A stretch of DNA of 64,000 bases from Halothiobacillus sp. (GTDB lineage Bacteria > Pseudomonadota > Gammaproteobacteria > Halothiobacillales > Halothiobacillaceae). This document shows positions 35,310 through 38,740 of the stretch, one piece after another. The notes under the pieces are model-generated. The model was given only the letters and a program-made list of their open reading frames with translations. It ran no database searches and was not told where the DNA came from. The position numbers were made by a program, and so were the translations under genes. The stretch is from assembly GCA_024635755.1 (NCBI GenBank), contig JAGXIF010000036.1, forward strand, positions 62,001-126,000. Direction: 5' to 3'. Position 1 is the first letter of the stretch; each line of letters starts with the position of its first letter.

Positions 35310-35816
35310 GTGTCGCGACGATGGATGATGGGAATACTCACTGCGAGCGCCGTGATGTGGGCGGGGCTGGTGACCGGTGGCGCGGCGGTCGCTTCGCCGC
35401 GGGATATGCCGATCGAACTCGAGGCGGCCGATATCCACGGCGAGGTGCGCAATCTGGCCGACCTGCGCGGCGACATCGTGTTCATCAATGTCTGGGCGAG
35501 CTGGTGCCCCTCGTGTGTCAAGGAGTTGCCCGTGTTGCAGGCGTTCCACGAGGCGCACGATGGGGTGCACGTCTGGGGGCTGTCCCTGGACATGTTCCGG
35601 GATGCCGAGCGGCTGCCCGAGTTTGTCGGCAAGCACGGGGTAACCTATCCCGTGATCAATGTCTCGCCGCAGGAGGCGAGCGTGCTCGGTTATATCGAGG
35701 GGGTCCCCATGACCTTCGTCATCGGCCCGGAGGGCACGGTGGTGGGTGAATACCTAGGGCCCGTCAGCCGTGAGGTGTTGGAAAACATGCTCAGTAGCCA
35801 GCAGCAGGGTCGCTAG
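35310..35816 (+). CDS. TlpA/ResA-like periplasmic thiol-disulfide oxidoreductase
   Basis: 168 residues from the GTG at 35310, with GAGAGGTG just upstream. It has a signal peptide or anchor of about 28 residues, then a thioredoxin fold with [10 protein letters not shown] (C66, C69) and the cis-proline [10 protein letters not shown] segment. Such proteins keep haem apo-cytochrome or Sox protein thiols reduced. Its position ahead of a SoxW-like thioredoxin supports a periplasmic thiol role. A 94-base gap with a hairpin separates them. Confidence 0.85.
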
Positions 35817-35819
35817 ATC

Positions 35820-35837
35820 GATTTTGGGCGCAAAATC
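35820..35837 (+). other. Hairpin in the gap before the SoxW-like gene
   Basis: GATTTTG / CAAAATC pairs over seven bases with GGCG loop just after the TlpA-like stop. No T run follows, so it is a weak terminator at best. The AT-rich bases after it (35850-35880) probably hold a promoter for the next gene, but I cannot fix its boxes. Confidence 0.35.
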
Positions 35838-35910
35838 CGCCCTGTAGTGTTAAATTTAGTTAGAAAGCTATTGATCCAACTCTGCCGGTGATTCAACGAA
35901 GGAGTGCTGA

Positions 35911-36447
35911 ATGATGATTCGCCCGATGCGTTTGCTGCTGTCCGGCCTGGCCGCAATGGCCGTGGCGTTTGCCACGGCTGCCCCCTTGCAGGCCCAGGAA
36001 CTCGAAGGGTTCTGGGATGACCCGTTCAAGGATCTGCAGTCCGACGTGGCGGCGGCCCGTGAGGAAGGCAAGGTCGGCGTGTTCGCCTTTTTCGAGATGG
36101 ACGAATGCCCCTTCTGCCACCGGATGAAGACGCAGGTCTTCACCGATCCGGCGGTCCAGGCGTACCTCAAGGAGCACTTTGTCACGGTCAGCATCGACAT
36201 CGAGGGCGATGTCATGATGACCGCCCCCGGCGGCGAGCAGATGAAGGAAAAGGACTTTGCCTTCCAAAAGCACCGCGTGCGAGCGACCCCGGTCATGATC
36301 TTCTTCGACACGCAGGGTGAGCCGGCGTTGCGCTACACGGGGCCGACCCAGTCGCCCGAGGAGTTCCTGCAGTTGATGAAGTTCGTCGCCTCGGGCACGT
36401 ACGACGAACCGGGCATGAACTTCTTCAAGTTCAAGAAGCAGCAATGA
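35911..36447 (+). CDS. SoxW-like periplasmic thioredoxin
   Basis: 178 residues. The signal peptide ends about residue 29 (LQAQE). The active site is DECPFCHRM with C66 and C69, and the cis-proline is in RATPVMIFFD. This resembles SoxW, the thioredoxin of many sox clusters, which acts with the SoxY sulfur carrier or other periplasmic thiols. AAGGAG lies before the ATG. The TolC-like gene follows after 53 bases and is likely cotranscribed. The name soxW is not applied, because assignment rests on fold and context. Confidence 0.78.
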   Translation: MMIRPMRLLLSGLAAMAVAFATAAPLQAQELEGFWDDPFKDLQSDVAAAREEGKVGVFAFFEMDECPFCHRMKTQVFTDPAVQAYLKEHFVTVSIDIEGDVMMTAPGGEQMKEKDFAFQKHRVRATPVMIFFDTQGEPALRYTGPTQSPEEFLQLMKFVASGTYDEPGMNFFKFKKQQ

Positions 36448-36500
36448 CATGGGCCGGGTCGCCGATCGGCCCGGCATGAACAGGCAGGGAGGCGGCAGCG

Positions 36501-37943
36501 ATGACAACGGCGCGATCTCGTTTCGAGGCCGGGGCACTCGGCCTGGTATGGCCCGGGGGATGGCCAGGCCTGATCCTGGCTGGGGTGGCCGGCCTGATGG
36601 CCATTCCGGCGATGGCGGGGGATGCCCTGCCGCCTCCACCGACGGTCGACGCCGATGGGCTGGTTGCCCCCGCCCCGTTGTCGGACACCCTCTCGCTCGA
36701 CGATGTGCTCTCCCTGCCATTGGGCGGGCAATATGCGGTGGTCGGCGCGCGCGCGCGCTACGAGCGCCGACTCGCCGAGCGACAATTGACCCGCTCGACC
36801 AATCGGCCGCAGATTTCCGTCGATGGGCGTTTTCGTTACGTCGAACCGGGTGAGCTGGCGGTAGAGAACGATCAGCACGACGACCATCGTGCCGGCCTGT
36901 CACTGCGGCAGAAGCTGTTCGACTTCGGCCGCCAGCGCTCGCGCGAGGCGGCCGCCGAGGCACGCCTGAAAGGCGAGCGACTGGCGCTGCTGGCGGAAGA
37001 GAAGCGCCAGCGCCTAAAGGTGTTGCAAGCCTATTTTGACGTGCTTCTGGCCGACCAGCGCTACCAGGCGCTGAACGAGCGCATGGCCATCCTCTTCATC
37101 CGTTACGACCGCGCCCGCGATCGGCGGGAGCTTGGTCAGACCTCCGACTACGACATCGCTGTCTTCGAGCGCGACTATCAGGCGGTGATGCTCGAGCGCG
37201 CGCGCGCGGATGCCGATCGCCGACTCAGTCGGCGGCACCTGGCCGAAGTGGCCGGTCGGCCGGGACAATTGCCCCGCAATCTCGAAGCCCCCCGTCTCGA
37301 TGCGCTGTTCGAGCGAGAAGTGCCGGCCGTGGGCAAGTTGATCGAGACGGCCCTGAGCGAGGATCTCGTCCTCCAAGCATTGCGTCGCCAACGGCAGGGC
37401 AGCGAATCGGCATTGGCCGCGGCCCGCTCCGGCAACCTGCCGAGCGTGCACGCGGAGGTCAATGCCGACTACTACACCCGCGAAGGCGCGACCCGGGACC
37501 CGTTCCGGGCCGGGGTGTATCTGGAATTTCCCCTGTTCCGCGGTGGCGCACGCAACGCCGAGATTGGTGTTGCTCAGTCCGACCGCATGGCGGCGGTGGC
37601 CGAGATGGCCGAGCGGGAGGCGAATATCCGTCGTTACGCGACCGAGCTGGTGGAGATGATTCGCCTGCAGCAGTCGACCGGGCAGCAGCGCATCCTTGCC
37701 TTGGAGAATTACGCCGAACTGAATTTCATGCGCAACCAGACCCTCTACCAGATGGAGAAGGCCGCCGACCTGGGGGACGCCATGGCCGAGATGTCCATGG
37801 CCCAGCTCGAGCGCATGCAGACTACCTACGCCCTGGCCATGCGCTGGGCCGAACTGGCCCTGCTGACCAACCGGTCGCTGGAGGCCGTGCTGCGGGGCGA
37901 GCCGCAGACCGGTGCCGAGAACGTCACGGAGGAAACGTCATGA
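36501..37943 (+). CDS. TolC-family outer-membrane channel protein
   Basis: 480 residues. A hydrophobic leader of about 39 residues ends AMAGDA. Two similar coiled-coil/beta repeats follow: the first with YFDVLLADQRYQALNERM and the second with the LQQSTGQQRILALENYAELN region, the pattern of TolC monomers. FRGGARNAEIGVAQSDRMAA lies between strands. The ATG is at 36501, and it overlaps the adaptor gene by four bases (ATGA). TolC-like channels trimerise and need an inner-membrane pump or adaptor; no pump is next to it. Confidence 0.85.
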   Translation: MTTARSRFEAGALGLVWPGGWPGLILAGVAGLMAIPAMAGDALPPPPTVDADGLVAPAPLSDTLSLDDVLSLPLGGQYAVVGARARYERRLAERQLTRSTNRPQISVDGRFRYVEPGELAVENDQHDDHRAGLSLRQKLFDFGRQRSREAAAEARLKGERLALLAEEKRQRLKVLQAYFDVLLADQRYQALNERMAILFIRYDRARDRRELGQTSDYDIAVFERDYQAVMLERARADADRRLSRRHLAEVAGRPGQLPRNLEAPRLDALFEREVPAVGKLIETALSEDLVLQALRRQRQGSESALAAARSGNLPSVHAEVNADYYTREGATRDPFRAGVYLEFPLFRGGARNAEIGVAQSDRMAAVAEMAEREANIRRYATELVEMIRLQQSTGQQRILALENYAELNFMRNQTLYQMEKAADLGDAMAEMSMAQLERMQTTYALAMRWAELALLTNRSLEAVLRGEPQTGAENVTEETS

Positions 37944-38740
37944 GGAGAATCGTACCCGGAACCGCGCGGCGACTGCCGGCGTCATTCGCGCTGACCGCTC
38001 TGCTGGCCACCGGCGTTGCCGGCACCGCTTGGGCCGCCGAGGTAGAGGGGCAGTTGACCTTTGCCGAGCGGGTGTCGCTGTCGACACCGGTCTTCGGTGT
38101 GATCGACGCCTTGCCGGTGCGTGCCGGCGAGCGGGTCGAGGCCGGTGCCCTGTTGCTCTCCCTCGATCGGACGCCTTTCGACCAGCGGCGCCGCATGGCC
38201 GCCGCGGGGCTGGAAGGGCTGCGCCTGGCCGCCGAGGAGGCCGCCAGGGATGCCGAGCGTGTCCAAGCGCTTTACGACCGCACCGTCGGATCGGATTCGG
38301 AGCGCGCGCTGGCGGTGATCGCGCGGGAAAAGGCCCAAGGCGCACGCGACCGTGCCCAGGCCGAGACCGCATTGCGTGCATGGGAACGTGAGCACGCCCA
38401 ACTGCAAGCGCCGTTCGCTGCACGGGTGCTGGCCGTCAATGCCGCGGTAGGCGAGGTGGTCTCGCCGCGGCTGAGCCCGCCGACGCTGATCGAGATTGCG
38501 CGGGCCGACCGGCTGTTGGCCTCGGCCGCGATCGATGCGGACCGTCTGGGTGACATCGAGTTGGGTGATCGATTGGTCGTGATCCGCGGCGGCGAGCGTC
38601 GGGATGGCGTCGTGGAAGCGATTCGTGTCCAGGATGGTGAGGACGACCGGTTGCGTTACCGGCTGGGCGTGTTGCTCGACACCGACGGGCTCGACTGGCG
38701 TGCCGGGCAGGCGGTGAGCATCGAGTTGCCGGACGACTGA
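37940..38740 (+). CDS. Short HlyD/RND-type periplasmic adaptor protein
   Basis: 266 residues, shorter than the usual 350-400 for RND adaptors. A signal peptide ends about residue 34 (TAWAAE). A lipoyl-like half motif VFGVIDALPVRAGERVEAGA starts the barrel-sandwich domain, and AQLQAPFAARVLAVNAAVGE closes it. Between them (about 75-155) a helical hairpin is predicted. The C-terminal beta domain includes GDRLVVIRGGERRDGVVE. It is translationally coupled to TolC and has no neighbouring transporter. It converges on proS. Confidence 0.82.
   Translation: MRRIVPGTARRLPASFALTALLATGVAGTAWAAEVEGQLTFAERVSLSTPVFGVIDALPVRAGERVEAGALLLSLDRTPFDQRRRMAAAGLEGLRLAAEEAARDAERVQALYDRTVGSDSERALAVIAREKAQGARDRAQAETALRAWEREHAQLQAPFAARVLAVNAAVGEVVSPRLSPPTLIEIARADRLLASAAIDADRLGDIELGDRLVVIRGGERRDGVVEAIRVQDGEDDRLRYRLGVLLDTDGLDWRAGQAVSIELPDD

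Follow-up and report, generated by a model that had tools for sequence, protein, structure and literature searches.

In Sox sulfur oxidation, thiol or persulfide chemistry in the periplasm is served by the SoxV-SoxW/SoxS systems of alphaproteobacterial sox clusters (Paracoccus, Rhodovulum; PMC10451225, PMC5748708, PMC11582611). Periplasmic adaptors of TolC-type channels form a second group of well-described proteins. Their anchor is a transmembrane helix or a lipid, and their membrane-proximal domains go with RND/ABC pumps having large periplasmic domains (PMC4446572). Most mutations in their RLS motif abolish both function and channel binding (PMC4446572).

The Halothiobacillus locus analysed here resembles both groups. 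Its SoxW is homologous to that of the sox clusters and is likewise tied to Sox, with an apparent feed from a CcdA/DsbD-type membrane protein in some lineages. In contrast to the SoxV-SoxW/SoxS systems, however, this SoxW belongs to an operon with a TolC channel and an adaptor, located outside the sox cluster and about 26 kb from soxB. Like AcrAB-TolC, MexAB-OprM (both RND) and MacAB-TolC, the set combines a TolC-family channel with an adaptor composed of hairpin, lipoyl and beta-barrel parts and carrying the RLS motif, whereas no pump gene accompanies it and the adaptor is predicted to lack a membrane-proximal domain as well as a lipid or transmembrane anchor. The adaptors of EmrAB-TolC and of type I secretion (HlyBD-TolC) are also devoid of a membrane-proximal domain, but their hairpin is longer and a transmembrane anchor is present at their N-terminus, while the present adaptor has a cleavable-looking signal and an AcrA-sized hairpin, with no MFS or ABC gene adjacent.

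TolC, SoxW and the adaptors are known kinds of protein; as far as the open-access literature shows, neither their combination nor the absence of a pump nor the architecture of the adaptor has been described. A search of open-licence papers found no published description of a SoxW-TolC-adaptor set, in line with the original prediction of an undescribed system. We propose, with a probability of roughly 45%, that the set, as an operon conserved among Sox-type sulfur oxidisers, links thiol-redox chemistry in the periplasm with an exit duct through the outer membrane. The passage of zero-valent sulfur, persulfides and activating thiols across the outer membrane of sulfur oxidisers is poorly understood, and the question can now be addressed with a small group of genes that is linked to Sox and conserved in many lineages. 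Being conserved and pump-less, the set points to an unstudied export from the periplasm during sulfur oxidation.

Gene layout of the set

The window, which is the whole stretch of 64,000 nucleotides analysed, contains four consecutive elements of the set on the + strand. The first (35310..35816), an optional member, encodes a TlpA/ResA-like periplasmic thiol-disulfide oxidoreductase with the motif WASWCPSC, assigned by Pfam-type domain matches to the families AhpC-TSA/Thioredoxin_8 (PF00578 1e-12, PF13905). Its GTG start is also found in the nearest relative (locus L053). The second (35911..36447) encodes a SoxW-type periplasmic thioredoxin with a CPFC motif, which matches Thioredoxin_2 (PF13098 8e-20), shows SoxW homology and is modelled with a thioredoxin fold (pLDDT 92.9). 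The third gene (36501..37943) codes for a TolC-family outer-membrane channel (TolC/OEP), matching PF02321 in two stretches (2e-28), in agreement with the two OEP repeats of this family, and TIGR01844 with a value of 9e-25 that is below the cut-off. The last (37940..38740) codes for the short periplasmic adaptor of 266 aa, predicted to be unanchored (HlyD_3, PF13437 4e-10). The intergenic gaps are 94 bp between TlpA and SoxW, 53 bp between SoxW and TolC, and -4 bp between TolC and the adaptor. The positions and the ATGA overlap of tolC with the adaptor gene agree with the original prediction, and the domain matches, the SoxW homology and the structure model bear out its identification of the SoxW-like, TolC and adaptor genes.

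The set is flanked by a divergent wrbA-like gene (34586-35272, - strand) and a convergent proS (38790-40640, - strand). These two genes close the set, and therefore no pump gene lies within or adjoining it in the window between wrbA-like and proS. A scan for promoters and terminators found nothing. The soxA gene, like soxB, is located about 26 kb from the set, inside the same window. In addition, the window encodes a rhodanese-domain protein (23992-25077) whose leader resembles a signal and whose rhodanese domain appears to be followed up by a weaker, second repeat.

Conservation and rearrangement of the unit

The main sample consists of 369 evenly sampled gammaproteobacterial genomes. A profile scan of this collection, with the SoxW alignment as query and a cut-off of E below 1e-38, identified a SoxW ortholog in 97 genomes. 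All 97 neighbourhoods were inspected; six are cut by contig ends, leaving 91 informative loci. TolC and the short adaptor are located directly downstream of SoxW in 82 of these 91, spread over dozens of families. Nine loci are real exceptions, two of them with the short adaptor on another contig. A scan of named genomes yielded 80 loci, including Thioalkalivibrio, Thiohalobacter, Thiohalomonas, Thiohalophilus, Thiogranum and Thiodiazotropha. A conserved grouping among other sulfur oxidisers had been set beforehand as a test of the prediction, and the 82 loci provide it; the same recurrence rules out local coincidence as an explanation of the set. Among 309 genomes at the phylum level, this SoxW is confined to the genome of the window and two more from its class. 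The evolutionary distances correlate between TolC and adaptor (r 0.65), SoxW and TolC (0.64), and SoxW and adaptor (0.39), against a permuted maximum of 0.24. These values, in which organism phylogeny is still contained, are as expected of co-inherited genes.

In relatives, the set is positioned between wrbA/galU and proS, and its accessory genes vary. The TlpA gene predicted just upstream is present there in the window but is not a constant member, occurring in 47 of the 82 triad loci and being absent from most Guyparkeria relatives. An acylphosphatase of about 89 aa follows the adaptor in 44 triad loci (L081:9064-9333 and 43 others). In many cases its start shares an ATGA with the stop of the adaptor gene, which makes it an operon member in many lineages; it is missing from the window. 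DsbD is found in eight of the 82. In L131:10446-12752 and similar Thioalkalivibrio loci, DsbD and then TlpA lie downstream of the adaptor, an arrangement that suggests an electron feed to SoxW. A UPF0114 membrane protein is encoded upstream of the set in only a few loci.

Five Thiohalocapsa genomes (L270-L274) keep SoxW together with the acylphosphatase and have the TolC-adaptor pair elsewhere. In the readable neighbourhoods, the pair stands divergent to genes judged by eye to be ybgC-tolQRAB-pal-like, with no pump beside it. The idea that bacteria with intracellular globules do without the channel was rejected, as Thiohalocapsa has merely relocated the pair. Because SoxW and the TolC-adaptor pair are separated in some genomes, redox coupling between them is not obligatory.

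Adaptor architecture and the missing pump

The AlphaFold model of the mature adaptor chain (pLDDT 95.7, pTM 0.82) was compared with known structures using Foldseek and VIA-align. It aligns to residues 54-300 of the 397 of AcrA (Z 18.6, rmsd 3.3, 231 residues), and also to residues 29-260 of MexA. The parts of AcrA outside 54-300 have no counterpart in the model, which comprises the hairpin, lipoyl and beta-barrel parts and thus is predicted to be without a membrane-proximal domain. The two hairpin helices (46-81 and 87-119) are of AcrA-like length. Among 63 aligned adaptors, the RLS columns contain R in 58, L in 60 and S in 43, with the spacing of R119/L123/S130 of MexA. Moreover, sequence prediction places an SPase I-like site in all 63 leaders and a nearby Cys in only two, and no lipobox or transmembrane anchor was found in these leader sequences with their predicted cleavable signal. 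The adaptor family therefore appears to retain the channel-docking part and, because its predicted signal has no lipobox and its model no membrane-proximal domain, to be devoid of both known pump-coupling devices.

The neighbourhoods agree with the original prediction that no pump is adjacent. Clustering of all neighbours in 104 loci revealed no recurrent transporter near the unit, MFS genes being assessed through this clustering only. RND-like ORFs occur in two of the 97 loci and ABC-signature ORFs, sought by a crude motif search, in one, none of them inside the operon. The small recurrent ORF downstream of the unit in relatives, considered as a hidden pump, is the acylphosphatase; the other downstream genes include a chromate transporter (one locus) and GspE-like ATPases (recognised by eye), which are not recurrent pumps. 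In terms of linkage, a pump gene, the finding that would have contradicted the prediction, was absent from the operon in all 82 triad loci and from beside the relocated Thiohalocapsa pair.

According to the operon-duct reading that we prefer, SoxW, often with TlpA and in some lineages with DsbD, would reduce or transfer a Sox-linked periplasmic disulfide or persulfide. The soluble adaptor, unanchored in its predicted architecture, would dock TolC tip-to-tip via its RLS motif and thereby open or seal the periplasmic side of the channel. The substrate may well be a molecule present in the periplasm from the start, namely a small thiol, a persulfide or a polysulfide. It may flow along its gradient, or a shared pump may act upstream; a dedicated pump is missing from the gene neighbourhood of the unit. 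Judged from the model, docking and gating of TolC for a periplasmic substrate, tied to Sox thiol chemistry, is the most likely role of the adaptor. The danger that a permanently open TolC would pose to the cell counts against this reading.

Ordinary tripartite efflux, with an RND, ABC or MFS pump encoded elsewhere and SoxW merely sharing the operon or protecting channel proteins, would fit the fold of the adaptor, which is that of RND/MacB adaptors. It fits less well with the predicted loss of the membrane-proximal domain of those adaptors and of the membrane anchor, a feature of every adaptor class that PMC4446572 covers, or with the lack of a pump neighbour in the 82 operons and at the relocated pair. 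An unlinked pump is nevertheless plausible, because the own genome contains several RND genes that have no TolC gene nearby and all reduced genomes tested that have a SoxW gene still have RND genes, the small Thioglobaceae keeping two. TolC channels are, in addition, commonly shared between pumps, and we regard ordinary efflux as a serious contender, albeit with odds well short of even.

A pump-independent outer-membrane conduit seems rather unlikely. Here the unanchored adaptor itself would open TolC, and the redox state of SoxW would control whether thiols or sulfur species are released or exchanged, providing a route for sulfane sulfur. An adaptor that functions with no pump would be an exception to the rule by which TolC adaptors join their channel to a transporter in the inner membrane.

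Link to Sox sulfur oxidation

The soxB gene is present in 151 of the 369 genomes, namely in 90 of the 97 with SoxW and 61 of the 272 others (OR 44, p 5e-36); such p-values are overstated, related species being non-independent, and the count by family, with soxB in 49 of the 51 families that have SoxW, is the fairer figure. Either soxB or dsrA is found in 93 of the 97 SoxW genomes. Within soxB+ genomes, dsrA has no effect (63/27 vs 41/20, p 0.72), and a sulfur-globule outlet, which predicts an anticorrelation with dsrA, was discarded on this result.

A search of 72,556 plasmids found SoxW matches in only six records, from Rhodobacter, Paracoccus and Ruegeria. The two examined both belong to sox clusters, one (L261) lying between the CcdA (SoxV) gene and soxX, and the other (L260) about 3 kb from soxB. 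Because of these positions, the SoxW name is justified, being earned through sequence homology to sox-cluster SoxW. By analogy with the known SoxV/SoxW/SoxS systems, the SoxW described here may act on Sox-linked periplasmic thiol/persulfide chemistry.

The SoxW fold also resembles general thiol oxidoreductases (H. pylori 4fyb, the DsbD C-terminal domain). This likeness, the housekeeping surroundings (wrbA, galU, fumarase, proS) and the position of the TolC-adaptor pair beside tol-pal in Thiohalocapsa would suit a general envelope-redox or maintenance operon, whose thiol reductases and TolC handle stress products and which is common through thiol- or sulfide-rich habitats; yet habitat alone hardly explains the soxB odds ratio over 51 families or the homology to sox-cluster proteins, and we consider such an operon improbable.

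A second, larger relative detected by the SoxW profile is common in the same genomes (for example G151:C1:764891-765304). Its frames are mostly 340-400 aa long and score 90-113 bits, and it seems to form a paralog family of its own.
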